Assembly (NCBI GenBank): GCA_946412245.1
Contig: CAMKGM010000010.1
Location: forward strand, 1-64,000
DNA from: an uncultured Bacteroidales bacterium
GTDB lineage: Bacteria > Bacteroidota > Bacteroidia > Bacteroidales > Muribaculaceae
DNA length: 64,000 nt
Direction: 5' to 3'
Numbering within the stretch: the first letter of the stretch is position 1; each line of letters starts with the position of its first letter. The notes under the pieces are model-generated. The model did no database searches. It saw only the letters and a program-made list of their open reading frames with translations, and was not told where the DNA came from. Of the stretch, positions 23,721 through 64,000 are shown piece after piece. Both the position numbers and the translations under genes were made by a program.

Positions 23721-26459
23721 TCAGTTGGAGCCCAGGATGAGGTTGATGAGGGCGGTGACATCGCTCACGTTCACACTCGTATCTTCATTCACATCGGCTC
23801 GTGCCTGGTCGACGGGCAGAGTGCCCAGAATCATGTTGATGAGGGCAGTGACGTCGCTCACATTCACTTTGCCGTCGTTATTCACGTCGCCACGGATGAA
23901 GTCGGGTGAGGGTAGTACCTCTATTTCGCCTTCGAAGTAGGAGTTGGAACCGGCGGCACAGATGCTGCCACCAGACACATGTCCGCCTTCAGGTTTGCTG
24001 ATGTAGCAGTCCACGAGTTGCAGGTCGTAGTAGCCAACGGTAACATATCCGTTCAGGAGGTGAACAGAGGCATGGTTGATGGTGAGGTTCTCGTCCCATT
24101 CCTCGTAGGAAATGCTACCATGAGTGAGCGTGACGGCGCAGCTGTCGATGGTGAGTCGGTGGTCATCATCGAAGTTTCCGCTGGTGAGCCAAATCCAGCC
24201 ATTGTTGATGGTGAGTGAGCCGGGGCCGGTGAGTCTCGTTCTGTCGCAGTTGCCCCAGTTGATGGCCATATTTGCGTTGCTTGGACAATTGATGGCGTTG
24301 TCGCCAATGAGGCGTATGGTGAGTCCCGGCAGTGTGCTGCCCACTTGAATGGCATTCTTGCCGTTGATGGTGGCATCGGTGAGTGTGAGCACATTATTCT
24401 CGGGGTCATATTGCACGCTGCCCGTAATGTCGTTGCCAGTGATGGCGTGGGCATTGCTTGCAGTGACTTGGATGTTGCCTACCTTCAGCGGGTAATCGGT
24501 GGCACCGTCGTAGGGGAGCCAGGAGTTGCCATTGTAGTAGTATGGTGTCCAATTTTTCGCCTTAGCCTGATTGATTTGTGCAGATGTGATGATGTTGCCT
24601 TCGGGTTTGCTAAGGTTACTATTATCATAAACATGGAAATAGGTCGTCTTGCCCTGCTGGTTGGGCAGGCTATTGACGAGCTCGCCCATCTCGGGCGCTT
24701 TTATCTGATTGCGGTAGCAAAGAAGTTGTGTGAGGTTGGGGTTCTCGCCCAGCGTGATTGCAGTGAGTTTGTTATTATGACATTGCAAGGTGGCGAGTTC
24801 AGGATTCCATTTCACTTTGAGTGAGGTGATTTGGTTGTCGTAGCATTCCACCATCGTGAGGTCGTTGTTATACCTCAGGTTGAGGCCGGTGAGATTGTTC
24901 ATAAAACAACCCAAGCGCTTGAGTCCTCGGAACCATTCAATGCCTGCAAGATTCGAAATCTGTTTTTGTGATAACGACAGATAGGTGACGGCATCGGCTT
25001 CTTCGCTACTGAGCACAGCATCGCTGCCATAGGACTGGCTGAGCAGATAGTTGCGGAACGCGGCGTCGGGGAATGTGGACTCGTTGATGGACACCGACTC
25101 GGGCAAATCTTGCCATTGCTTGACATATTGCTTCACGCTCCAGTTTTTGGCATGGGCGGTCTTGGTCATTGACATGCTGGGTAGGTAGTTCATCTCCTCG
25201 TCGTTCTCCTGGTAGGCATAGAAACTTGCCGCGGCGGTTTGTGTGGGCAGACTGTTGATGAGTGCGCTCATGGCATCTTTCCAAATGTAGTTGTTGTAGC
25301 AACTCACTTCGGTGAGTCGCTTGTTGTAGCTCAAGTTGAGGCTGGTGAGCCGGTTGAAATTGCACCGTAGCACTTCGAGCACGGTGTTTTCACCAAGATT
25401 GAGTGAAGTGAGTTTGTTGTTGGAAATGAGCAGTTGCTTGATGCCGGTGTTATGGCTCAAATTGACGGTCGAGAGGTTGTTGCTATTGCAATTCAGCGTC
25501 TCGAGAAAAATGAAGTGCTCGATGCCCGCCAGGTTGCTGATGTTTTTCCCAGCCACATTGAGGTCTCTTGCTGTTTTGTAGAGTTCAGATGTCAAATAAC
25601 CGTCGTGATTCGTGTCGACACTTTGGGCCACAAAGTTGCGAAATTGTTCATCGGGAAAAGTGCTGGCATTGATGGGCACCTTCAACTCAATCGAAATGCT
25701 TGTGGTGACGGGATCTCCACTGCTGTTGACAAAGGTTTTCTTGTTTGGATCGAAGGATTGCCCCGCCGAGGTAATCACGTCGTAGCCATTGAGTGTGAGG
25801 CTTGCCAGGTTCTTGACCGTCTGCACATTGTTGTAGTTGTTGACATTGGCTCCGGCAATATACATATAAGAGTTTGTCATGACGATTGCGGCAAGGTTGC
25901 TGATCGTACCATTTTTGCTGCAGTAGAGGTGGACGCTTGAGTCGATGAGTTTGACCGTCTCGTTGCCCGTGCCGCTCAATGGCACCGACGACTCGCTCAT
26001 GATTCCGCTGGTGTTGAGCGAGATGGTAGCCTTGTTGAAGGTGAGGGTGCAGCCGTTTGAAAGATAGATGGACCCCTCAGATTTGCCACGAATGGCGACT
26101 TCGGCATCATAGTCGGTGGTGATAGTTGTGTTTTTCTCGAAGCGCATGGTGGCGGCTTTATCGCTATGTAGTATGTTTTCACCCACAAAATGGACGGTGA
26201 GCCCGGCATTGTCGGTGTTGTGTAGGCAGCGCTCATCGGTCCCGTAGCGACCCATCTGCACGTTGGTGAAGGTGACGGTGTTGGTGTAAGGGTCGTACCT
26301 GATGGTACCCTTTTGCAGGTCATCGGGCTGAATGTTGTTATAGTTTTCGTCGGTGACAGTCACGCCGCCCACCTTGAAACCGAAACTGGTAGCAGCTTGA
26401 GCACTAACTGATAGCAAAATGATGAATGCAAAAAACAGGAGTGTGCGAAAGATTCTCAT
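23721..26459 (-). CDS. Secreted leucine-rich-repeat protein with C-terminal dockerin-like tail
   Basis: 912 residues with a signal peptide (MRIFRTLLFFAFIILLSVSAQA). Two domains of the type FKVGGVTVTDENYNNI / LKVGNIQVTASNAHAI, each with YDP.TNTVTF..V-like strands and beta-helix-like repeats, flank a central LRR region. In that region NLAGIEHFIFLETLNCNSNNLSTVNLSHNTGI and NLAGIEWFRGLKRLGCFMNNLTGLNL are internalin-like repeats, present in two blocks. The C-terminus (GDVNNDGKVNVSDVTALINMIL and ADVNEDTSVNVSDVTALINLILGSN) is a duplicated dockerin-type calcium-binding motif. It is expected on the surface or outside the cell. A ligand cannot be predicted. Its 3' end is nearly identical to 56669-56732. 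Confidence 0.8.
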   Translation of the reverse strand: MRIFRTLLFFAFIILLSVSAQAATSFGFKVGGVTVTDENYNNIQPDDLQKGTIRYDPYTNTVTFTNVQMGRYGTDERCLHNTDNAGLTVHFVGENILHSDKAATMRFEKNTTITTDYDAEVAIRGKSEGSIYLSNGCTLTFNKATISLNTSGIMSESSVPLSGTGNETVKLIDSSVHLYCSKNGTISNLAAIVMTNSYMYIAGANVNNYNNVQTVKNLASLTLNGYDVITSAGQSFDPNKKTFVNSSGDPVTTSISIELKVPINASTFPDEQFRNFVAQSVDTNHDGYLTSELYKTARDLNVAGKNISNLAGIEHFIFLETLNCNSNNLSTVNLSHNTGIKQLLISNNKLTSLNLGENTVLEVLRCNFNRLTSLNLSYNKRLTEVSCYNNYIWKDAMSALINSLPTQTAAASFYAYQENDEEMNYLPSMSMTKTAHAKNWSVKQYVKQWQDLPESVSINESTFPDAAFRNYLLSQSYGSDAVLSSEEADAVTYLSLSQKQISNLAGIEWFRGLKRLGCFMNNLTGLNLRYNNDLTMVECYDNQITSLKVKWNPELATLQCHNNKLTAITLGENPNLTQLLCYRNQIKAPEMGELVNSLPNQQGKTTYFHVYDNSNLSKPEGNIITSAQINQAKAKNWTPYYYNGNSWLPYDGATDYPLKVGNIQVTASNAHAITGNDITGSVQYDPENNVLTLTDATINGKNAIQVGSTLPGLTIRLIGDNAINCPSNANMAINWGNCDRTRLTGPGSLTINNGWIWLTSGNFDDDHRLTIDSCAVTLTHGSISYEEWDENLTINHASVHLLNGYVTVGYYDLQLVDCYISKPEGGHVSGGSICAAGSNSYFEGEIEVLPSPDFIRGDVNNDGKVNVSDVTALINMILGTLPVDQARADVNEDTSVNVSDVTALINLILGSN

Positions 26460-26678: not shown

Positions 26679-26727
26679 CAATATTCAATGCTGTTTGTGC
26701 ATAAATCTTCAAATAAACTATACTATT

Positions 26728-28746
26728 ATGAAAAAGATATTACTTCTCCTGTTGGCACTGATTGCCAGTGTAAATGTGTGGGCCGAAGACTATATCACCG
26801 ACGTGATGGTGATAGGCGGCTCACAAAGTGTAGTCAACAATCTGAAAGATACCTACACGAGTCAGGGCTGGACGGTCATCGACCAGGACCTGAATAAGGG
26901 CTGTGGCTCCAGCAGCGACTACATCTACCTGCTTTACAAGTCGGCAAGTGAGACTGATGTTGAACTCGGTGCCTTTATCACCGACTTCGCAATCAGCACA
27001 GAAACCGGCACAATTCCCGACGCTCTCTCGTTAGATGGTTACACCTATCACCTTGTGCCCTTTGATGGCAGCGACTATTTCAAGAACAACAAGGGCGACC
27101 TGAACAGCCATTGCGGCTCCAGTAGCGCCACCATCCATCTCTACTATACCAAGGAATATAGTAGAGTCGGTACATACCACATTGCAGTCAAATCCATTGC
27201 CTTCAACGACACGCAGGCCGGCGGCGTGCCCATCGCTGGCGCCACTACGGGCTATGACCTGAACGCCGGTGCCGGCGGTGACTATATCTACATGCATGCC
27301 GACAAGGCACAGGGATGGACAATCACAAAGAACTATGCAGGCAATGAGTGTTATATCAACGGCTTTGACGGACCCAAGACAATTTATAAATATTTAATCA
27401 TACCCTTCACCATCGACGGTGCTACGGTGATTGGCATAACTAACACAGTCTTCAATGGGTTCACAAATCTTGAAACAATGGCTTTCGGCCAAGGCACTTC
27501 AATTACCCAGATGCCGTCGGTGCAAGGCTGCTCCAAGTTCAAGCATGTCAACTTAGCTAGACCAGCGGATGAGCTTACTGACATAACTCCACCTTCAATG
27601 ACAAGTATTCCGGGGTATGCTTTCGCGGGCACGGCCATTGAGCAAATAACATTTCAGTCTGTCACAAGTGTTGGCAGCGATGTTTTTTCTGGATGCAAGA
27701 AACTGTCATCAGTCACTTTCATGAAATCACCTGTCCTGATTGAAAATCATGCTTTTTCAAACATTAAATCATACTGCAGTGTGTCATATCCGGGGTCTAT
27801 TGAAGACTGGAATCCAATGATGTATATGTATTCACCGATGTTGGTTGTCAAAGGTCCAAACAATAGCTGGTCATGCGGCTGGTGTGGCGGTGATACAGTA
27901 ACAAGCAACAATCATCTTTACTGGACGATGCAGAATAATCATCTGAAAATTAATTGCGCTACCGACATCTGGGACACCTATCCCGAGGAGCAACACATTG
28001 AGTTCCTGTACTGGGCGAGAGATTCAGTTCAGACTCTCACCCTGGAGCATGTTGACTATATATCAATGTCTCTATTCCAGTGGTATCCAAATCTTACTGT
28101 TGTGGATGTGAAATCTGGTCTTAGGCGAATATTAGGGAGTGCTTTCACAAATTGCTACAAACTGGAGAAAGTATATCTTCCGTCGTGTTTGGACAGCATA
28201 GAAGCATACGCTTTTAGATCTTGTCGTTCCTTGGCTGATATTTACTTCGACGGCACTGGTGAGCAGTGGAACATTGGAGTTTATAAAGAAAATGGTTGGA
28301 ACCAAGGTGTGGCAAGCAATTTCAAGGAACACTGGCACTGTGTGGTTACCTATAATGCCAACGGGCACGGCACGGCTCCTGCCCCGGTACCGATCCAGTG
28401 GAGCAACGAGGACAAGCTGGACGAGCCCACTGCCCCCACGGCCGATGGCTACGTTTTCACAGGCTGGTACAAGGAACCCGACTGCATCAACCCGTGGGAT
28501 TTCAACACGGAAGTGCCCGGCGACATGACGCTCTATGCAGGCTGGGAGCCGGTGGTGGTCAGCAAGCCAGGTGACGCCAACGAAGACAGTCAGGTGGATG
28601 TGCTGGATGTGACCACGGTGATCAATTACATCTTGAACAAGAACCCCAACCCGTTCAACTACAACAATGCCAACGTGAATGGCGATGCCAAGGTGGATGT
28701 GCTGGATGTGACCTTGATTATTAACATTATACTGGGATTAGGTTGA
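26728..28746 (+). CDS. Secreted beta-prism-like / BspA-type LRR / InlB-repeat / dockerin protein, paralogue 1
   Basis: 672 residues; signal peptide MKKILLLLLALIASVNVWA. Residues ~20-130 and ~150-200 contain ITDVMVIGG...GWTVIDQDLN-KGCGSSSDYIYLLYK and YDLNAGAGGDYIYMHADKA. The pattern resembles MABP-type beta-prism repeats (ITDv...DlNkGaGG..IYL). Residues ~215-540 are BspA/TpLRR-like repeats (FNGFTNLETMAFGQGTSI, FSGCKKLSSVTF, FRSCRSLADIYFDGT). A Listeria-Bacteroides (InlB B) repeat follows at ~545-610 (VTYNANGHGTAP, GYVFTGWYKEPDC, TLYAGWEP). The tail is a duplicated dockerin motif (GDANEDSQVDVLDVTTVINYIL; NGDAKVDVLDVTLIINIIL). It is a likely surface protein. Start chosen for the signal peptide and promoter spacing. 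Confidence 0.85.
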   Translation: MKKILLLLLALIASVNVWAEDYITDVMVIGGSQSVVNNLKDTYTSQGWTVIDQDLNKGCGSSSDYIYLLYKSASETDVELGAFITDFAISTETGTIPDALSLDGYTYHLVPFDGSDYFKNNKGDLNSHCGSSSATIHLYYTKEYSRVGTYHIAVKSIAFNDTQAGGVPIAGATTGYDLNAGAGGDYIYMHADKAQGWTITKNYAGNECYINGFDGPKTIYKYLIIPFTIDGATVIGITNTVFNGFTNLETMAFGQGTSITQMPSVQGCSKFKHVNLARPADELTDITPPSMTSIPGYAFAGTAIEQITFQSVTSVGSDVFSGCKKLSSVTFMKSPVLIENHAFSNIKSYCSVSYPGSIEDWNPMMYMYSPMLVVKGPNNSWSCGWCGGDTVTSNNHLYWTMQNNHLKINCATDIWDTYPEEQHIEFLYWARDSVQTLTLEHVDYISMSLFQWYPNLTVVDVKSGLRRILGSAFTNCYKLEKVYLPSCLDSIEAYAFRSCRSLADIYFDGTGEQWNIGVYKENGWNQGVASNFKEHWHCVVTYNANGHGTAPAPVPIQWSNEDKLDEPTAPTADGYVFTGWYKEPDCINPWDFNTEVPGDMTLYAGWEPVVVSKPGDANEDSQVDVLDVTTVINYILNKNPNPFNYNNANVNGDAKVDVLDVTLIINIILGLG

Positions 28747-28856: not shown

Positions 28857-30899
28857 ATGAAAAAGATATTATTATTGCTTGTGGCAATGCTCGCGGTGGG
28901 AGCGACGGCCCGGGCCGAGGACTATATCACCGATGTGATGGTGATAGGCGGCTCACAAAGTGTAGTCAACAATCTGAAGGATACCTACAGGCGTCAGGGC
29001 TGGACGGTCATCGACAAAGACCTGAACGCCGGTTGCGGCTCGGGTAGCGACTACATCTACCTTCTCTACAAGTCGGCAAGCAGCGACAACCTCGATGCCG
29101 GTGCATTTGTCACCGACTTCTACCTTTTGCAATCTAATTCTGGAAATGTTATACCCACTTTCATTGATGATGGCCTCACCTATAGCCTTGTACCCTGTGA
29201 TGGCAGCGATTATTTCAAGAACAACAATGGTGACCTGAACAGCCATTGCGGCGCCGGCAGTGCCTATATCCACCTATACTTTGCCAAGGACAATGACAAG
29301 GCTTACCGCTCCACCGCCGTGACTTCCATCACATTCAACGCCACAGCCGAAGGGGCCGTGTGCCAGAACGATACCACGATAGCCTGCGACCTTAACTATG
29401 GCGCCGGAGGGGATTATATCTACATGCACACTAACTCGACATTGAAAGGATTTACTCCTTTTATGAACACTACAGGCACCGAGTGTTACATCAACGGATA
29501 TGCTGGCCCCAAGGACAAAAGGACGTCGGTCACCATCCCCCTCACCATCGACGGGGCAACGGTATTAGGCTTCTCTGGCATGACCTTCAGCGGCTTCACA
29601 AACCTGGAGACGATGACTTTTGACCCCGCATCGGTAATCGACTGGATGCCCTCGGTACAGGGCTGCACAAAATTCAAACGAGTAAAAACAAGTTATGATG
29701 GGGGGCTCTTGCCATTGGACCAAATGACTCCACCTTCGATAAAAACCATCCCAACTTATGCATTCGCAGGAACAGCACTTGACGAAATTTATTTGACGTC
29801 GGTCACCGAAATCAGAAGTCATGCGTTCGATGGTTGCGATAGTCTGAAAAATGTCACCCTACCCAAAAACGCCCTGATCGATTCTTATGCTTTCGCCAAT
29901 ATTCAAAGTAATTGTTATATTGCATCTTCAGACGCAATGACTGACTTGGACCCCAGCGTGTTTATGTATTCGCCAAACTTGTACTGCTATGATAAATATT
30001 TCTCATGGATATGCGGCTGGTGTGGCGGAGATACTGTGACGACCAATAACCATCTCTACTGGACGCTGGATAGAGGAGGACATCTGAACATCGATTGTTA
30101 CAACTACATGTGGGAACAGTTCCCTCAGAGTCAACTCATCACTACCCACACGTGGGAGAAATCTAATCTCTTCCCAAAAGTAAAAATCTTGACGCTGGAG
30201 CATGTTGACACCCTCAAGGCCTATGAATTTAATGGATATACCAGTCTTGAGACCTTAGACGTGAAGTCGGGCCTGAGGAGTATAGGAATGTTCGCTTTCA
30301 ACGGATGTTCAGCACTCAAAACGGTGTATCTTCCACCGTGTGTGACAAAAATTGGGAGTTATGCTTTCAGAAACTGTGGACTCCTTGCTGACCTCTACTT
30401 CGACGGCACAGACGAACAATGGAACCGCATAATAGTAAAAGGATTGGGATGGAACAGCTATGTGGCTTCTGACTTCAAGGAGCACTGGCATTGTGTGGTT
30501 ACCTATAATGCCAACGGGCACGGCACGGCTCCTGCCCCGGTATCGATCCTGTGGAGCAACGAGGACAAGCTGGACGAGCCCACTGCCCCCACGGCCGATG
30601 GCTACGTTTTCACAGGCTGGTACAAGGAACCCGACTGCATCAACCCGTGGGATTTCAACACGGAAGTGCCCGGCGACATGACGCTCTATGCAGGCTGGGA
30701 GCCGGTGGTGGTCAGCAAGCCAGGTGACGCCAACGAAGACAGTCAGGTGGATGTGCTGGATGTGACCACGGTGATCAATTACATCTTGAACAAGAACCCC
30801 AACCCGTTCAACTACAACAATGCCAACGTGAATGGCGATGCCAAGGTGGATGTGCTGGATGTGACCTTGATTATTAACATTATATTGGGTCTCCAGTGA
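28857..30899 (+). CDS. Secreted beta-prism-like / LRR / InlB-repeat / dockerin protein, paralogue 2
   Basis: 680 residues; signal peptide MKKILLLLVAMLAVGATARA. Domain order is the same as the gene just upstream: a beta-prism-like N-terminus (ITDVMVIGGSQ, DLNAGCGSGSDYIYLLYK, DLNYGAGGDYIYMH), BspA-type LRRs (FSGFTNLETMTFDPASVI, FDGCDSLKNVTL, FNGCSALKTVYLPPC), an InlB B repeat and a double dockerin-like tail. The centre of the two proteins is clearly diverged. The 3' ~398 bp (30492-30889) matches 28339-28736 with only three differences seen, which suggests recent gene conversion. The tandem arrangement points to duplication. Confidence 0.85.
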   Translation: MKKILLLLVAMLAVGATARAEDYITDVMVIGGSQSVVNNLKDTYRRQGWTVIDKDLNAGCGSGSDYIYLLYKSASSDNLDAGAFVTDFYLLQSNSGNVIPTFIDDGLTYSLVPCDGSDYFKNNNGDLNSHCGAGSAYIHLYFAKDNDKAYRSTAVTSITFNATAEGAVCQNDTTIACDLNYGAGGDYIYMHTNSTLKGFTPFMNTTGTECYINGYAGPKDKRTSVTIPLTIDGATVLGFSGMTFSGFTNLETMTFDPASVIDWMPSVQGCTKFKRVKTSYDGGLLPLDQMTPPSIKTIPTYAFAGTALDEIYLTSVTEIRSHAFDGCDSLKNVTLPKNALIDSYAFANIQSNCYIASSDAMTDLDPSVFMYSPNLYCYDKYFSWICGWCGGDTVTTNNHLYWTLDRGGHLNIDCYNYMWEQFPQSQLITTHTWEKSNLFPKVKILTLEHVDTLKAYEFNGYTSLETLDVKSGLRSIGMFAFNGCSALKTVYLPPCVTKIGSYAFRNCGLLADLYFDGTDEQWNRIIVKGLGWNSYVASDFKEHWHCVVTYNANGHGTAPAPVSILWSNEDKLDEPTAPTADGYVFTGWYKEPDCINPWDFNTEVPGDMTLYAGWEPVVVSKPGDANEDSQVDVLDVTTVINYILNKNPNPFNYNNANVNGDAKVDVLDVTLIINIILGLQ

Positions 30900-41993: not shown

Positions 41994-42251
41994 TCAACGG
42001 CAGGTGTCGTTGGGGTTGACCAGTTGTTCGCGCACATATTGCGCTTTGCCCTCATCGCTATCGCTCTTGGAACTCAAAAAATTGGGGAAGAATATCCAGC
42101 GGATGATAACGAAAAAGATGAATAGCTTGATGAGAATGATGAGCCACAGCGTTTTGCCCACAGTCATGCTGCGGAATCCGTCGCGGTAGAAGTAAAATAC
42201 CCTCTTGAACCAGTTGGGACGTTTCTGTGATTCATGATTTTCAGCAGTCAT
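41994..42251 (-). CDS. DUF4492 small membrane protein (cyd operon)
   Basis: 85 residues from ATG 42251: MTAENHESQKRPNWFKRVFYFYRDGFRSMTVGKTLWLIILIKLFIFFVIIRWIFFPNFL. There is one membrane helix after an amphipathic basic segment, then a charged tail. Small DUF4492 proteins regularly precede cydA in Bacteroidota and Campylobacterota. A role as assembly or accessory subunit, analogous to CydX, is inference. The longer frame to 42464 has no support, and the promoter at 42278-42309 lies inside it. It is 49 bp from cydA. Confidence 0.85.
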   Translation of the reverse strand: MTAENHESQKRPNWFKRVFYFYRDGFRSMTVGKTLWLIILIKLFIFFVIIRWIFFPNFLSSKSDSDEGKAQYVREQLVNPNDTCR

Positions 42252-42277
42252 TCCTTGATGTTTTGATAAATAATTCA

Positions 42278-42309
42278 CAAATATCGTGAAAAAGATTAAA
42301 AAATGCAAA
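42278..42309 (-). promoter_or_regulatory. Predicted promoter of the cyd operon
   Basis: Minus-strand TTTG -33 (42306-42309), 20-bp spacer, variant -7 GATATTTG (42278-42285). The rest of 42310-42500 shows nothing identifiable. Confidence 0.55.
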
Positions 42310-42502
42310 TTATTTCTCTGTAAACGTAGAAAAATGTTGAATTTTTTTGTGCACGTCCATAAAACAGCGAAGTGTCGAAGCCTTATCGAGGTCCAACGCC
42401 TATTTGCATGGCGGCACTTGCTTCTGTGCGGTTGGGGGATGGTGAATTGGGCGGCAGTGCGCATGAGGCGATTTTTGATTTGATGTTTTGTGTTGTGTTT
42501 CT

Positions 42503-42568: not shown

Positions 42569-44344
42569 ATGACAGAGAAAACGGATATAGACCATGGCGG
42601 TATGCTGGTGGTAGGTGACACACTGCAAATGGGTAAGTACCGCATTGAGCGTCAGTTGGCCTCGGGCGGTTTCGGCAACACCTATGTGGTGCTGAACACC
42701 TATTTTGACGAGCGCTATGCGATGAAGGAGTTTTTCATGAAAGGCTTGAGTGGACGTGCCGCCGATAATTCAGTGAGCGTGAGCGAGCCGTCTCGTCCAA
42801 CATTTGAGGAGCAACGCAAAAAGTTCATGAAAGAGGCCCAGCGTCTGCGAGGCCTGCATAACGGGCACATTGTAGCGGTTCATGACCTGTTTGAAGAGAA
42901 CGGGACGAGCTACTATGTGATGGACTTCGTCGATGGTGAGTCTTTGTCGCAGCGGCTCAAGCGCACGGGCAAGCCCCTCGTCGAGTCCGAGGCTCTCCGC
43001 GTGCTTGATCAGGTGCTTGATGCGCTCGGCACGGTGCATGAACAGGGCATTTGGCATCTGGATCTCAAGCCGGGAAATATTATGTTGGATTCCCAAGGAA
43101 CAGTGAGACTCATCGACTTCGGGGCGAGCAAGCAGATGAATTTTGGTGAGGGTTATACAAGCACATCGACTGCGATGTGCTATACCCCCGGTTATGCTCC
43201 TGGAGAACAAATAGACCAGAACCTGAAGCGCATAGGCCCATGGACCGACCTTTATGCGCTGGGTGCCACTCTTTACAAACTGGTTACGCTCAATGAGCCT
43301 CCCATTTTGTCTGAGTTGGATGAGCCCGATGCGTTTGTTTACCCTGCTGGCGTGAGCCCGGGTATGCGTGATTTGGTGCAGTGGATGATGAGCCGGCGGG
43401 TGAGCTCTCGCCCGCAATCTGTGCAGCAGGTGCGCGACCGCCTTGCCCAAGGAACTGCTTGTGACTCTCCGCTAAAAAGCGACAGTGAAGTTACTGTGCT
43501 CGACGATGTCAGCCCCGCTGATAAGGTCGCTCAGACTGACGATGAGGAAACCACTTTCGTGCATGAAGAGAAACGGCCAAAGCAGGACACACGTGAGTTT
43601 GTACCCGGAAAGCTATCTGCAGAGCAGTGTAGCCAGCGTACTGACGCCAGCGGAAACGAAGTGTTTACCATAGGCGATGTGGAGTTCACGATGTTGGCGG
43701 TTGATGGTGGCACATTCATGATGGGCGCGACAAGCGAGCTGGGCAGTGATTCGTTTGGAGACGAAAAGCCTTCTCACAGCGTGACCTTGTCACCGTACTA
43801 TATCGGCCAGACGGTGGTGACACAGGCCTTGTGGGAAGCCGTGATGGGCAGCAATCCCAGTTATTCTAAGGGTTCTAATAAACCTGTTGAAAGTGTAAGC
43901 TGGGATGACTGCCAGGAGTTTCTGCGCAAGCTCAGCTCGCTCACAGGACAGCGGTTCAAACTGCCCACTGAGGCCCAATGGGAGTATGCCGCGCGAGGCG
44001 GCCGCAAGAGTTGTGACTACAAGTATTCCGGCAACAACTATCCGAAAGATGTTGCGTGGTACGATGAAAACAGCGGTCATGCCACTCACAATGTTGCAAC
44101 CAAGCAGGCGAACGAGCTAGGTGTCTACGACATGAGCGGCAACGTGTGGGAGTTGTGCAGAGATTGGTATGGTGCATACAGTAGCAGTTCACAGACCGAC
44201 CCTACCGGTCCCTCCTCAGGCTCTTTCCGTGTGTATCGTGGCGGTAGCTGGGACAACAGTGCTGGGTATGTTCGAGTATCGAGCCGATTTGGTAACGCAC
44301 CCGACTTCCGCAGCCGAAGCTTGGGCTTGCGCCTTGCCCTATAG
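42569..44344 (+). CDS. Ser/Thr protein kinase fused to a SUMF1 (formylglycine-generating-like) domain
   Basis: 591 residues. Residues ~24-295 are a Hanks-type kinase: YRIERQLASGGFGNTYVV (Gly loop), YAMKEFF (Lys), HLDLKPGNIML (catalytic loop, HLD in place of HRD), LIDFGASK (DFG), TPGYAPGEQ. An acidic linker spans ~300-370. The C-terminal ~215 residues form a SUMF1/FGE fold (FTMLAVDGGTFMMGATSE, PVESVSWDDCQEFLRKLSS, LPTEAQWEYAARGG, YDMSGNVWELCRDWYG, VYRGGSWDNSAGYVRVSSRF). The two Cys of true formylglycine-generating enzymes are absent in the last motif, so this domain is probably a binding module. No membrane helix is seen. Targets are unknown. Confidence 0.88.
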   Translation: MTEKTDIDHGGMLVVGDTLQMGKYRIERQLASGGFGNTYVVLNTYFDERYAMKEFFMKGLSGRAADNSVSVSEPSRPTFEEQRKKFMKEAQRLRGLHNGHIVAVHDLFEENGTSYYVMDFVDGESLSQRLKRTGKPLVESEALRVLDQVLDALGTVHEQGIWHLDLKPGNIMLDSQGTVRLIDFGASKQMNFGEGYTSTSTAMCYTPGYAPGEQIDQNLKRIGPWTDLYALGATLYKLVTLNEPPILSELDEPDAFVYPAGVSPGMRDLVQWMMSRRVSSRPQSVQQVRDRLAQGTACDSPLKSDSEVTVLDDVSPADKVAQTDDEETTFVHEEKRPKQDTREFVPGKLSAEQCSQRTDASGNEVFTIGDVEFTMLAVDGGTFMMGATSELGSDSFGDEKPSHSVTLSPYYIGQTVVTQALWEAVMGSNPSYSKGSNKPVESVSWDDCQEFLRKLSSLTGQRFKLPTEAQWEYAARGGRKSCDYKYSGNNYPKDVAWYDENSGHATHNVATKQANELGVYDMSGNVWELCRDWYGAYSSSSQTDPTGPSSGSFRVYRGGSWDNSAGYVRVSSRFGNAPDFRSRSLGLRLAL

Positions 44345-44373
44345 TTCTCCCTAAAGAAAAAATAAAAAAATAG

Positions 44374-44443
44374 CACAAGTGTGGGCTGTGCCGAGAAAAA
44401 GGCGGCATCAAGCCGCCAAAAAAGCAGCACAGCCCCGCTTGTG
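44374..44443 (-). terminator. Large nested hairpin with terminator-like core
   Basis: Outer arms around 44374-44392 and 44424-44442 (GCACAAGTGTGGGCTGTGC against GCACAGCCCCGCTTGTGGGC, imperfect). The inner stem is GGCGGC / GCCGCC (44401-44406 with 44412-44417), with a T-run on the minus strand. It sits downstream of the prmC remnant (minus) and past the kinase stop codon (plus), so it may serve both directions. Confidence 0.55.
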
Positions 44444-44448
44444 GGCCA

Positions 44449-44494
44449 ACATCCACTCTTGCGGTTAAGACAGTTGGGCGATGGCGAAGCGAGG
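44449..44494 (-). pseudogene. Remnant of a prmC 3' end (direct repeat of 46611-46656)
   Basis: 38 of 46 bases match the 3' end of prmC, in the same orientation. Read on the minus strand it encodes PRFAIAQLS-stop, against PRFAIAQLP-stop in prmC, with mostly synonymous changes. The match fades upstream. Together with 46611-46656 it brackets the AbiE-like gene pair. Confidence 0.75.
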
Positions 44495-44674
44495 AGTACA
44501 AAAAAGCGAAAGGTCATAGTTGAGGTAAAATAATGAGAAATCAATCGTAGCAAAATTTCGATAAATGCGTACAGTTATGGCATGATATGCCACAAAAGGT
44601 AGCAGCATGCTCCGTTTTTTATCAATTCAAAGAAATTTTTTCACCAAAAGTGTTTTCATTATTGAAAAAAACAC

Positions 44675-44742
44675 TAAATTTGCAGTCGTGTTCGGTTTGT
44701 TGATATGTTCGGTTTTCCAGAATATCTAAAATAACCAAACAT
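44675..44742 (+). promoter_or_regulatory. Promoter and operator-like repeats of the AbiE-like pair
   Basis: -7 TAAATTTG at 44675-44682. Downstream lie GTGTTCGGTT (44688-44697), ATGTTCGGTT (44705-44714) and the inverted AACCAAACAT (44733-44742). The last two form a 10-bp inverted repeat with one mismatch. AbiEi-type antitoxins repress their own promoters through repeats, so these are candidate operators. Confidence 0.6.
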
Positions 44743-44751
44743 ATAAGGCTT

Positions 44752-45711
44752 ATGGAAACAGGAGAACAAATACTGAATGCCGCAGTTATTGCATTGAATG
44801 CTCACTTCAAGAGCATGAAGATGACAATAGAGTCTGAGACTGTCGTTATCATCGGCGGCCAAAGGCTGAGATGTGTGATTTGTCCGAACTTAAGATCCAC
44901 ATTCATCTCCAGGGTACAAGCAGAGGTCGCTAGCGGAAAATTGCCACGGCTTGTGCTGTTGGTAACAATTTCGCTCACGCGTGGGATGTCGGAGTTGGTC
45001 AAAACGGCGGGACTCAATGCAGTTGACATAGCAGGGAACTGCCACATAGACGTTCCATCCACACTGATTCATGTGGAAGGGATTCCCGTCAAACACCCCA
45101 CAGGTAAAAGGTCACTGCAATTCCGTTTGTCCGGCATTAAGGTGCTTTACTGGATGCTTGTCAACAATGATATGAAGATCGTGCCGTTCCACGCTTTAGC
45201 CCTGCGAGCCGATGTGTCAACATCTACGGTGAAACACGTGGTAGACACGTTAATGGATTACGGTTACATTCTGAGAACTGAAAACGGGTACTTCATCAAG
45301 AATCGCCAAGCACTGATGGACCTGTGGGTGGATATGTATAACAAAATAGCGCGTCCCCGGCTACTCAAGTGGAGGATGAGCTGGCGCCACAGGGATGTGG
45401 ACTGGCAGCACATCAAGTTGCCCGACATGACGGTCTGGGGTGGCGAATGTGGCGCCTATCTTCTCAACGGGTACATGACTCCAGGGCAATATGAAATATA
45501 CACTTCGCTGAGCATGAGGGAGATTATGAGTAGCGGGCTGGTTGTGCCTGACGAAACCGGGAATGTTACGATATATCAAAAATTCTGGAATAATGATGCG
45601 GATTCCGCAAATCCGCTGGTGTTGTATGCCGACCTAATTAACCAAGGCGACGGGCGAAGCCTCGAAGCCGCAAACATATTGAGAAATGAAGCCCTTGGAG
45701 ATAACCAGTAA
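44752..45711 (+). CDS. AbiEi-like type IV antitoxin / transcriptional regulator
   Basis: 319 residues. The segment LVLLVTISLTRGMSELVKTAGLNAVDIAGNCHIDVPSTLIHVEG resembles the DxAGN motif of AbiEi-family antitoxins. A winged helix follows at ~125-190 (SLQFRLSGIKVLYWMLVNNDMKIVPFHALALRADVSTSTVKHVVDTLMDYGYILRT), then a C-terminal domain (WRHRDVDWQHIKLPDMTVWGGECGAYLLNGYMTPGQYEIYTSL). It overlaps the next gene by 26 bp. In characterised AbiE systems the antitoxin does not bind the toxin but counteracts it and represses the operon. Assignment rests on motif and partner gene. Confidence 0.75.
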   Translation: METGEQILNAAVIALNAHFKSMKMTIESETVVIIGGQRLRCVICPNLRSTFISRVQAEVASGKLPRLVLLVTISLTRGMSELVKTAGLNAVDIAGNCHIDVPSTLIHVEGIPVKHPTGKRSLQFRLSGIKVLYWMLVNNDMKIVPFHALALRADVSTSTVKHVVDTLMDYGYILRTENGYFIKNRQALMDLWVDMYNKIARPRLLKWRMSWRHRDVDWQHIKLPDMTVWGGECGAYLLNGYMTPGQYEIYTSLSMREIMSSGLVVPDETGNVTIYQKFWNNDADSANPLVLYADLINQGDGRSLEAANILRNEALGDNQ

Positions 45712-46558
45712 ACAGTTCAGCCAAGCCCTGCTGGTCGAAGTGTTACAGGCGTTGACTGGATGCTTTCAGGGAATGGGTCAGTCTTTCTTTGTGGTCGGTG
45801 CCACATCTCGCGACCTGCTGGCGATAGCGTTTGATATGTCTGGGCCTCAACGTGCAACAAGAGATCTTGACATCTGTATTGCCATCCCAACCTGGGAGCG
45901 ATATGATGAAATCAGTGAGGAATTGCAACGAAACGGGTTCAGTAAAGACAACCATGCCAAGCAGCGGTTCCACTACACAACGAGCCTCAAGATTGACTAT
46001 GAAGTTGATGTAGTCCCGTTTGGCGGCATATCGCCCGATGATGCACACATCTATTGGCCTCCTGATATGGACCCGATGATGACGGTAAGAGGGTTTGATG
46101 CCGTGTTGAAACAATGCATCACAGTTAGGGTCATCGACAAGAATTTTGAATTTAATATCCCGACTGCAGGTGGACTCTTCCTGTTGAAGTTTGATGCATG
46201 GGTTGACCGTCATGATGGCACCGACAAGGATGCGCTCGACATGATGTACCTGATGGAGCATTACTACCTGCCCAACAGCACTGATGACAAATACGCAAAT
46301 GTGTATGACTTGAGCGGCAGTTTTTCTGAGCTTCGAGCAGGGGCCTATATGATTGCAATTGACATCTGCGAACTGATGGACAGCAAGCACTTGTCCTTCT
46401 ATGTTGAAGCAATCAATGACGAGTTGGCTAAAGAAGAGCAGAGCCCATTGTTGCAACAGATGTTGCGCTCCCACTCCAATTCCCTCAGTGCTTATAGGGA
46501 ATTGAAAGACGCTTGGCAAACCATGTCAGACGTGTTTACAACAGCCCTTGAGGCATGA
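45686..46558 (+). CDS. AbiEii-like nucleotidyltransferase toxin
   Basis: 290 residues. FFVVGATSRDLLAIAF and RATRDLDICIAIPTWERYDEI form the nucleotidyltransferase core: Gly-rich loop and DLD metal-binding Asp pair. A third acidic position is likely in DYEVDVVPFGG. LFLLKFDAWVDRHDGTDKDALDMMYLME matches the region after the catalytic fold in AbiEii/AbiGii proteins (K...R....KD..D). AbiEii-like toxins modify tRNA or protein targets by nucleotide transfer and can give phage defence. It lies directly downstream of, and overlaps, the AbiEi-like gene. The short 46559-46626 gap holds no gene. Confidence 0.8.
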   Translation: MKPLEITSKQFSQALLVEVLQALTGCFQGMGQSFFVVGATSRDLLAIAFDMSGPQRATRDLDICIAIPTWERYDEISEELQRNGFSKDNHAKQRFHYTTSLKIDYEVDVVPFGGISPDDAHIYWPPDMDPMMTVRGFDAVLKQCITVRVIDKNFEFNIPTAGGLFLLKFDAWVDRHDGTDKDALDMMYLMEHYYLPNSTDDKYANVYDLSGSFSELRAGAYMIAIDICELMDSKHLSFYVEAINDELAKEEQSPLLQQMLRSHSNSLSAYRELKDAWQTMSDVFTTALEA

Positions 46559-46610
46559 AACAATAGCATTAGACAACAATACAAAGAAAAATAGCCACGC
46601 CTGGGGGGCG

Positions 46611-46656
46611 ACATCCGCTCTTGGGGTTAGGGGAGTTGTGCGATGGCGAAACGGGG
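46611..46656. repeat. Direct repeat at the prmC 3' end (partner of 44449-44494)
   Basis: Spans the prmC stop codon (46627-46629) and about 16 bp beyond. The repeat pair encloses ~2.1 kb with the AbiE-like genes. Confidence 0.7.
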
Positions 46657-47478
46657 GTTGCCGTACTGGTCGTTGATGATGCGCACATCGGTGAAGCCAG
46701 TGCGGGTGAGCAGACTCTGCATTTCCTGGGGGAAACGGCGGTTGATTTCGAGGTATAGCCACCCGTGCGGCACGAGTGCGTTCAGGGCAAAAAGGACGAT
46801 GGCGCGATAGTAACGCAACGGGTCGTCGTCGGGCACAAACAGGGCCGAAGCCGGTTCGTAGCGCAACACGTTGGGTTCCATGGCAGCCCTCTCACTCAGG
46901 CAGATGTAGGGTGGGTTGCTCACGATGATGTCATAATTTCGCAGTTGCGGGTCGGGGTTGAGTATGTCGTCTTGCATGAACTGCACGCGTGCTTTGAGGG
47001 CAGTGGCATTTTGTCGCGCTACGGCAAGCGCCTCAGCACTGATGTCGGTGGCATCGACCTGCGCGAACTTGAGTGCCCTGGCCAGCGAAATGGCGATGCA
47101 TCCGCTGCCGGTGCCCATGTCGAGCACTTTGAGGTCGGGCGTGTTGCCATGACGGTCAACGATGATGTCGACCAATCGCTCGGTTTCGGGTCGCGGAATG
47201 AGCGTGGCGGGTGTCACCATAAAATCGTGTCCATGAAACCGTGCCCTGCCCAGGATGTATTGCAACGGCTCATGTTGCAAGAGTCTGGCAGTGATGGCTT
47301 TAATGCGGTCAACAAAGACGTCGTCTTGCTCAAAATCAGCCCGTAGCACCGTGTCTACCGGCGAGTAGTTGAGCACGTCTTGAAGCACAATGTAGATGAT
47401 GGCCTGCACTTCTTGTTCGGGGTAGAGCTGACTGAGTTGCTCACGCATGAAGCGGCTGATTTGTGATGTGGTTGCCAT
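46627..47478 (-). CDS. prmC: Release factor glutamine methyltransferase
   Basis: A 283-residue SAM-dependent enzyme methylating the GGQ glutamine of RF1/RF2. The N-terminal helical domain ends with EPLQYILGRARFHGHDFMVTPATLIPRPETE. The SAM site is KVLDMGTGSGCIAISLAR. The catalytic NPPY motif appears as NYDIIVSNPPYICLSERAAME. The C-terminus is RFAIAQLP. It is divergent from ribD. Its 3' end is duplicated at 44449-44494. Confidence 0.95.
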   Translation of the reverse strand: MATTSQISRFMREQLSQLYPEQEVQAIIYIVLQDVLNYSPVDTVLRADFEQDDVFVDRIKAITARLLQHEPLQYILGRARFHGHDFMVTPATLIPRPETERLVDIIVDRHGNTPDLKVLDMGTGSGCIAISLARALKFAQVDATDISAEALAVARQNATALKARVQFMQDDILNPDPQLRNYDIIVSNPPYICLSERAAMEPNVLRYEPASALFVPDDDPLRYYRAIVLFALNALVPHGWLYLEINRRFPQEMQSLLTRTGFTDVRIINDQYGNPRFAIAQLP

Positions 47479-61785: not shown

Positions 61786-64000
61786 TTAAATAACGCCTAA
61801 AATGATATTGACCAGCGCAGTCACGTCGCTCACATTCACCTTGCCGTTGCCGTCCACGTCAGCCACCTCCTGATCCATGGGCACAACGCCCAGAATCATG
61901 TTGACCAGCGCAGTGACATCGCTCACATTCACTTTGCCGTCGCGGTCCACATCGCCCACAAGCCACGTGCTCTCGGTGAGAGTAACTTGCTCAATGTTCG
62001 ACCACTCGCTCTCGGTTCCGTTCACGTAGCGGGCCTTAACCTTGTAGTTGAAGGTGCCTCCGTGCTGCAGGGCGGTGACATCGCTATAGGTAGTGGTAAT
62101 GCCTTCAATCACGCGCATAATAGAGTCTCCGTTCTCGACCACGGCGAGCAGGGGTGCATTCTCTTGCGTGGTCACATCGCCGGCGTAGATTTTGATGCTC
62201 TTCACATAGGGGAAGTTTGTCTCGGCCCACAGTTTGAGCGACTCGTTACGGTTCGTATTGAGCACATAGGTGTAGTCGGCAAACGATGGTGTGAGCGTGT
62301 ACTGTTGCTCGTCGCCCGTTGAGGTGGCCGTGACGATGAACGTCGACAGAGCGCTCTGCATTGAGTAGTAACTCTTGGCGTTAACCACCACCGACATCTT
62401 GTCGTGTCCGTTAGGCAGGGCATATTCTTTCGTGTTTACCTCCGAGAAGCGAATGGATCCGGCACTGGGATACAGGTAGCGGCCGCAGGTCCAGCCGGCG
62501 GGCAGATAGTCGGCATAGTATTCGGCCTCATTGAAGTAGCTCTCGGCGGTGCCTGAGAAATCGGCCTCCTCCAGCATCTCCACAGCCGGTGCAAAGCCGT
62601 CAATGGCCACCCACAGGGTGTAGTCTTTCACATAGTTGGCTTGCGTCTCATCGGTCCAGCGTGCACGGAATTTGTCAATGTCAATGAAGCGCTGTTCGGC
62701 AGGCTGCATCACAGGCACTGAGGTGGTGATGGGATGATACTCGGCCTCACCGCTGATGTGCATCGTCACAGGATCGGCTGGCGCACTGGAGAGTACAATT
62801 GTTGCTTCATACGAGCCGGGATTCACAGGGCTGAACGAGAGTCTCACTTCAGCACTGCCGTCACTGAGTTCGTTGAGTGTCACCTTGTCCTTATCGATGG
62901 CAAACACGCCGTTCTCATCGTTGAGCGTGAGGCTTACATCGTTCGACAATTTGGTGCCGCGCACCTCAAAGATAATGGTCTCGGTCTCACCGGTGAACAT
63001 GGGCGGGAAGTCAATGTTGAGCGGTGTGGCGGTCACCACAGGATTGCGGCCGGTACCCATTAGGGTAATCACTGCGTCGGCGGCATTGCGGCTCTTGAGC
63101 GTGAGCGTGGCGGTGTAATTCTCCACCGCCTTGGGTTTGAACTTTACCTCAAGTCCGGCATAGCCCGTTGCAGCCTCGGCAATGGGTATGGTGTTGCGCA
63201 CCAGCGAGAATACGTCGTTGGGGTCATCGATGGTGGCGGTGATAGGTTCAGAGAGATAGAAGCCGCCGACCACTACGGTCATCTGCACTTCATCGTTGAT
63301 GTATTGCTCGGTGAAATTGAGCACGGTGGGTCGAGCGACAATCTCAGGACCGAGTGTGGTGGCACTCAGAGCCACGGTCACATTGTCGCATCCCGGGGTG
63401 GTGAGCAATATTGAACCGCGGAAGGTGCCGCCTGTTGTTGACTTGAATTTCACGGTCACAATCTTTCCTGTCATAGCATCGGCGGCACTGATGGTGAGAG
63501 GCGTCACGGTGAATACATTGTTCTCGTCGGTGAGCGTGAGTGTGACATCATCCGTGAGATTGGCACCGCTGACCCTGAATGTGGCGGTTGACTCATTGCC
63601 CAGCGTCACGGTGTCCATCACAATGGATTGCACGCTTGTGCTCAAGTTCGCGTCAGTACCTTTCACATACCAGAACGATACGGTACCATCGGGGTTGATG
63701 TTGATTTCGGTCACAGGCTTGTCAATGACACCCGCACCGCCGGTAGTGCCGGCGAGAGTGCCTGCTGCCGTCAGGTTCAGCCAGGGTTTGGGGTCGGTTG
63801 ACTTGGTGAACTTGTGGTTGGTCACACCGAAGACGTCGGTCGACTCATTGCCCGCATCGGCATCGCCGTCGGCCGCCATGATGGTCATCAGTTGCAAGTC
63901 CTCGTTGTTCACCGTGTTGTCATCCCAGCGATCGGGGACATAAGTCACATGCGAGATGAGCAGACCCTCACCGGGTATGTAGGTATCCCAGCCTTGTTTG
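61786..64000 (-). CDS. C-terminal part of a probable M6-type metalloprotease with dockerin-like tail (runs off the window)
   Basis: Open from the window edge (64000) to the stop at 61786, ~737 residues. The first residues, KQGWDTYIPGEGLLISHVTYVPDRWDDNTVNN, match the segment after the active site in M6 (immune inhibitor A-like) proteases, so the catalytic HExxH should lie upstream, outside the window. About four Ig-like/choice-of-anchor repeats follow (IVARPTVLNFTEQYINDEVQMTVVVGG; VTATPLNIDFPPMFTGETETIIFEVRG), then fibronectin-like YNYKVKARYVNGTESEWSN. The end is a duplicated dockerin-like motif (GDVDRDGKVNVSDVTALVNMILG, ADVDGNGKVNVSDVTALVNIILG). It is a secreted or surface protease. Confidence 0.75.
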   Translation of the reverse strand, partial: KQGWDTYIPGEGLLISHVTYVPDRWDDNTVNNEDLQLMTIMAADGDADAGNESTDVFGVTNHKFTKSTDPKPWLNLTAAGTLAGTTGGAGVIDKPVTEININPDGTVSFWYVKGTDANLSTSVQSIVMDTVTLGNESTATFRVSGANLTDDVTLTLTDENNVFTVTPLTISAADAMTGKIVTVKFKSTTGGTFRGSILLTTPGCDNVTVALSATTLGPEIVARPTVLNFTEQYINDEVQMTVVVGGFYLSEPITATIDDPNDVFSLVRNTIPIAEAATGYAGLEVKFKPKAVENYTATLTLKSRNAADAVITLMGTGRNPVVTATPLNIDFPPMFTGETETIIFEVRGTKLSNDVSLTLNDENGVFAIDKDKVTLNELSDGSAEVRLSFSPVNPGSYEATIVLSSAPADPVTMHISGEAEYHPITTSVPVMQPAEQRFIDIDKFRARWTDETQANYVKDYTLWVAIDGFAPAVEMLEEADFSGTAESYFNEAEYYADYLPAGWTCGRYLYPSAGSIRFSEVNTKEYALPNGHDKMSVVVNAKSYYSMQSALSTFIVTATSTGDEQQYTLTPSFADYTYVLNTNRNESLKLWAETNFPYVKSIKIYAGDVTTQENAPLLAVVENGDSIMRVIEGITTTYSDVTALQHGGTFNYKVKARYVNGTESEWSNIEQVTLTESTWLVGDVDRDGKVNVSDVTALVNMILGVVPMDQEVADVDGNGKVNVSDVTALVNIILGVI

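Follow-up and report, generated by a model that had tools for sequence, protein, structure and literature searches.

The AbiEi/AbiEii gene pair in the window, the 64,000-nucleotide stretch of DNA that was analysed, lies between two diverged copies of the 3' end of prmC, and relatives carry AbiE-free sites beside this gene. The locus looks like the scar of one acquisition event, not like a hot spot used again and again. A defence-type pair would have entered beside a housekeeping gene without visible integration machinery, leaving an allele scar that could be dated and oriented by closer genomes. The window comes from a draft assembly (3.17 Mb, 98% complete, 138 contigs), in which it belongs to contig C10.

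The gene for the peptide chain release factor N(5)-glutamine methyltransferase, prmC, occupies 46627-47478 on the minus strand (TIGR03534, 237.4 bits; cut-off 199.1). Its live 3' end (46583-46656, minus strand) recurs in the same orientation as a stranded copy (44421-44494, minus strand). This direct repeat, D1, spans the last nine prmC codons and the stop and continues for 44 nt into the 3' flank; 57 of its 74 nt are identical (77%). The original prediction had reported 38 of 46 matching positions between 44449-44494 and 46611-46656; the ungapped recount gave the same figure, within what proved to be a longer repeat. Apart from the stranded copy, no place in the window matches 46611-46656 at more than 25/46 (same strand) or 26/46 (opposite strand). 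An assembly-wide search returned 64 bp at 80% (E=1.9e-9) and no third copy in the 3.17 Mb (next-best E=0.96), nor was one found in the whole assembly with the prmC end as query (next-best E=0.68). Chance similarity was rejected by these match scores in window and assembly. As a control, 600 random 46-mers were drawn from the window, and 8 of them matched another place on the same strand at 38 or more positions; the window does contain further long repeats, for the most part tandem gene copies (26.7-30.9 kb). The similarity ends abruptly at 44494/44495. Further prmC pieces within 44345-44760 were considered and rejected: tblastn ranks the stranded end first (E=0.012), a second match (E=0.049) also falls there, and the rest have E>=1.2.

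Read on the prmC strand, the live gene encodes PRFAIAQLP-stop and the stranded copy PRFAIAQLS-stop. Of the 17 mismatches of the repeat, eleven fall in the 44-nt flank, none in the stop, two in the ninth codon and four in the eight shared codons. These last four are without exception synonymous third-position changes, a pattern with P=0.0066 if four differences are placed at random on 24 sites, and four of the five fourfold-degenerate codons, as read by eye, differ between the two ends. The original prediction of the same last residues with mostly synonymous changes is thus borne out. Because all four shared-codon differences are synonymous, the two ends, small as the counts are, fit better with two once-functional prmC alleles than with a gene end and its decaying duplicate. 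A strong nested hairpin, a likely terminator judging from predicted folds and terminator-like sites, is located at about 44374-44443 (no strand assigned), between the neighbouring kinase gene and the stranded prmC end; nothing as strong was seen in the fold of the live end.

The surroundings of prmC were compared across the genus. The gene was found in 97 of 101 genomes, own included, and its surroundings were taken for 93 of the 96 relatives. The neighbours are named here as genes that we take to be DUF4492, cydA, cydB and ribD. In the three nearest congeners (L023, L024 and L025; prmC 75-77% identical), the DUF4492 match starts 127, 91 and 162 bp after prmC, respectively, and is followed by cydA and cydB; there is one prmC end, and neither a kinase nor AbiE is present there. 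Across the 93 relatives, DUF4492/cydA follows prmC within 600 bp in nine and at a greater distance (2.1-5.7 kb) in seven, ribD follows within 600 bp in 31, other layouts are found in 42, and four end too soon. The prmC-cyd order is thus kept in 16 relatives, in seven of which other genes intervene without a repeat pair. The seven relatives with 2.1-5.7 kb of other sequence between prmC and cyd are L031, L032, L040, L094, L104, L106 and L113; in the first three, the predicted proteins in between do not resemble AbiE.

AbiE was not found in the first 7 kb after prmC in any of the 93 loci, as far as their sequence extends; the downstream part is shorter than 7 kb in 23 of them and shorter than 2 kb in 12. 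Among the 90 relatives with enough downstream sequence (three of the 93 were dropped), none has a second prmC 3' end; the best match reaches 27/46, compared with 36/46 in the window for an identically designed query. Conversely, none of the nine AbiE relatives with larger flanks (L140-L148) shows prmC beside AbiE. The original prediction had combined entry of a cassette at the prmC 3' end with a hot spot for defence genes at this place. An acquired insert and a stranded end resembling a second allele agree with the first part, and the nearest congeners indeed have empty sites with one end; the hot spot within the genus was rejected on the absence of second ends and of AbiE from these loci, and the genes that intervene in other relatives come without repeat pairs.

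Beyond the stranded end, the window continues with a gene for a Ser/Thr kinase with an FGE-sulfatase domain (42569-44344, plus strand; PF00069, PF03781), followed by a DUF4492-like gene (in the ORF at 41994-42464, minus strand, assigned by synteny with the empty-site relatives) and, presumably, cydA and cydB. The kinase-FGE gene is not at the corresponding place in L023, L024 and L025, and it is matched in one of the 93 relative prmC loci (L130). Since nearest as well as more distant relatives have AbiE-free sites, the AbiE pair was most likely gained beside prmC, and the kinase-FGE gene was most likely a second gain at the same place, between DUF4492 and prmC. The earlier reading had left the latter gene out. 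It has relatives elsewhere in its own assembly, on contig C8 (63-69% over parts), and related genes are numerous in some genus members.

How the pair may have arrived is best accounted for by horizontal import of DNA linked to prmC, with one joint homologous and the other illegitimate; to this we give about an even chance. The incoming DNA would have carried the AbiE pair together with a prmC 3' end derived from a related species. A homologous crossover within prmC on one side, with a non-homologous joint on the opposite side (homology-facilitated illegitimate recombination), would have left the live prmC with the 3' end that arrived with the AbiE genes, and the last nine codons and terminator region of the other allele would have been stranded on the far side. 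The presumed direction may also be reversed: the kinase-FGE gene, arriving with the S allele beside a resident AbiE pair, would produce the same picture. Homology-facilitated illegitimate recombination has been described in several bacteria (PMC3240628), and a section of PMC5361080 proposes such a process for the T6SS clusters of Vibrio, with the displaced 3' part left downstream. As described there for Vibrio cholerae, a new module adjoins a conserved gene and an older 3' part lies beyond, as in the window; the V. cholerae arrays are built by successive events, whereas the window shows one event in one genome (PMC5361080).

Several observations count against import. The same section points out that illegitimate joints form far less often than homologous ones (PMC5361080), no AbiE-named PADLOC family is matched, and the donor of the fragment was not found; the genus search for the stranded end gave two matches of 19-24 bp (E=0.006). 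In addition, prmC as a whole does not appear foreign in sequence: its divergence from L023 and L025 resembles that of the neighbouring genes, and import of the entire gene was rejected on this ground. The proposed origin draws on one draft assembly of 138 contigs, and the allele argument on few differences.

Site-specific integration at the prmC 3' end, which we regard as rather unlikely but as a serious rival, would make the cassette what is left of an integrative element. The attachment site of that element would have carried a prmC 3' end that restored the gene, and its integrase would have been lost or would act in trans. In E. coli, the e14 element integrates at icd in this manner, its attachment site restoring the gene, and the window shares with such elements the succession of gene end, insert and displaced gene end: prmC is intact, ends lie on both sides in the same orientation with the stop preserved in both, the flank is carried along, and an 11-nt identical run, TTCGCCATCGC, lies inside the coding end of both copies. 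Unlike in e14-type elements, no integrase gene is present between the copies, as originally predicted, and no other occupied site was found: second prmC ends are lacking in all 90 relatives, and no viral contig contains the exact pattern of the prmC end. Four Prevotella nigrescens integrases used as tblastn queries match neither the window nor any of the 93 relative prmC loci; in a control these queries detect one another, at identities as low as 26%, and integrases of very different sequence would escape such a search. Because neither an integrase nor another occupied site was found, the homologous and illegitimate route is held to be roughly twice as probable.

The direct repeat that brackets the insert could also stem from an insertion with a long target duplication, or from an old tandem duplication in the lineage that diverged later. 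PMC4978471, with reference to Nobusato et al. 2000, mentions insertion with a long target duplication as possible for one restriction-modification cluster of Helicobacter that is flanked by a direct repeat. In the window, the copies are far from nearly identical (17 of 74 nt differ), and the stranded copy keeps the eight shared codons and the stop, all four differences in those codons being synonymous, which makes duplication an unlikely source. An assembly chimera of two strains, conceivable in a draft with 3.82% estimated contamination, is very improbable: prmC is matched once in the assembly at E<=1e-40, and there was little to mislead the assembler at the joint, since the query 44345-44530 has no assembly match longer than 20 bp besides the prmC end.

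Between the prmC copies lie only the AbiEi and AbiEii genes, with 257 bp before and 24 bp after them, as the original prediction had it. The antitoxin gene comes first: it encodes an AbiEi-like antitoxin/regulator of 319 aa (44752-45711, plus strand; PF09952 AbiEi_2, 69.3 bits, cut-off 21) and overlaps at 45686-45711 with the gene for an AbiEii-like nucleotidyltransferase toxin of 290 aa (45686-46558, plus strand; PF08843, 25.1 bits, cut-off 22.5). Residues T58, D60, D62 and K168 of AbiEii are invariant among seven aligned sequences (alignment A1). The locus is a further case of the known AbiE type IV toxin-antitoxin systems, with which it shares two overlapping open genes, the antitoxin first, both Pfam families above cut-off, and the conserved T-R-D-x-D motif with a distant lysine; it differs in that its AbiEii barely passes the Pfam cut-off. 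No AbiE-named PADLOC-DB family was matched: AbiEi has no match in this database at E<=1, and AbiEii matches only PDC-M21B (1.4e-4). The cassette would work as a type IV unit, in which AbiEi would repress the operon and neutralise AbiEii, and the nucleotidyltransferase would arrest growth once released, for example on phage infection.

The region upstream of AbiEi (44495-44751, plus strand; 32% G+C) contains TTTGCAG, two TGTTCGGTTT repeats (at 44689 and 44706) and AACCAAACAT, and may serve as promoter and operator. As regards autoregulation through a winged-helix DNA-binding domain and operator repeats, helix-turn-helix models stay below cut-off, and the TGTTCGGTTT repeats are situated upstream. 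The layout upstream of AbiEi in L148, the contig of a Bacteroidales metagenome-assembled genome that holds the closest AbiE relative found (53% identical), looks similar to that of the window.

The distribution of AbiEii is sparse and patchy, because few matches were obtained at any taxonomic level: in the genus, 3 of 101 genomes gave a match (E<=0.001); at E<=1e-15, so did 8 of 397 family, 18 of 393 order and 26 of 395 phylum genomes, own included in each of these overlapping samples. Among plasmid records there are 28 matches, all below 60% identity, the best being 42% in P. nigrescens; no match was found among phage records. Exact or single-protein searches of viral contigs detected neither the AbiE proteins nor the window's prmC end, and a profile search for AbiE detected one match (L191). 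In L140, L145 and L146, the AbiEii gene is either interrupted or short.

Some AbiE loci contain a third gene. Outside the window, 51 loci were collected (L140-L190), of which 50 were located by tblastn (L189 was not). A phosphatase gene follows AbiEii on the same strand in 8 of these 50. The queries were a PP2C motif and the eight proteins themselves, a search that may overlook phosphatases of other kinds, and in L179 hardly any sequence is available behind AbiEii. The gene encodes a PP2C in L140, L141, L143, L144, L146, L147 (P. nigrescens) and L157, and a calcineurin-like phosphoesterase in L148. It is thus present in seven of the nine loci L140-L148 (L142 and L145 are without it), in contrast to the window, whose cassette has no third gene. 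Viral contig L191 has the order AbiEi-AbiEii-PP2C, with a 4-bp overlap of the last two genes and a phage virion morphogenesis gene after the PP2C; its AbiEii is without a Pfam match at 0.01. In the window, a three-codon ORF overlaps the AbiEii stop (46555-46566, plus strand, seen in the sequence); one may speculate that it is the start or vestige of a lost third gene.

A profile of alignment A1 gave a sole, weak match among solved structures (E=0.43), to MenT1 (8an4, 8an5, 8rr5) of the MenA/MenT toxin-antitoxins, in which the T-R-D-x-D motif aligns with T58-D62 of the window protein. According to passages of PMC11375011, the antitoxin induces autophosphorylation of MenT1 at T39, which inactivates the toxin; replacing T39 with alanine weakens the toxicity without abolishing it, and the variant can still be neutralised. 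It is possible, although on balance doubtful, that some Bacteroidales have a three-gene operon of AbiEi, AbiEii and a phosphatase that reactivates the toxin, and that the window lost the third gene at the prmC joint. The phosphatase, PP2C or calcineurin-like, would undo antitoxin-induced autophosphorylation of a threonine two residues before the DxD motif (T58 in the window, T39 in MenT1), switching the toxin back on. Three points count against this reading. The threonine before DxD is found in all 18 covering rows of a 20-row AbiEii alignment, with and without a phosphatase gene, and thus does not track the phosphatase; the alanine variant of MenT1 retains some toxicity and can be neutralised, as stated above; and the word phosphatase is absent from the main text of the MenT1 paper (PMC11375011). 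No report joining AbiEii or type IV toxin-antitoxins with PP2C was found in the open-licence literature. If the phosphatase acts on the toxin, it would allow the autophosphorylation switch known from such toxins to be reversed; as a lead, the phosphatase in related operons is more novel than the locus itself.

Among the other repeats of the window, the tandem genes 26695-28746 and 28857-30899 encode large proteins (683 and 680 aa). Over about 300 bp at their ends the two genes are identical or almost so, although much of the rest has diverged, which suggests gene conversion between them. Short similar stretches are further found at 23806-23875 and 61802-61940, 38 kb apart, the latter being also repeated within about 100 bp.
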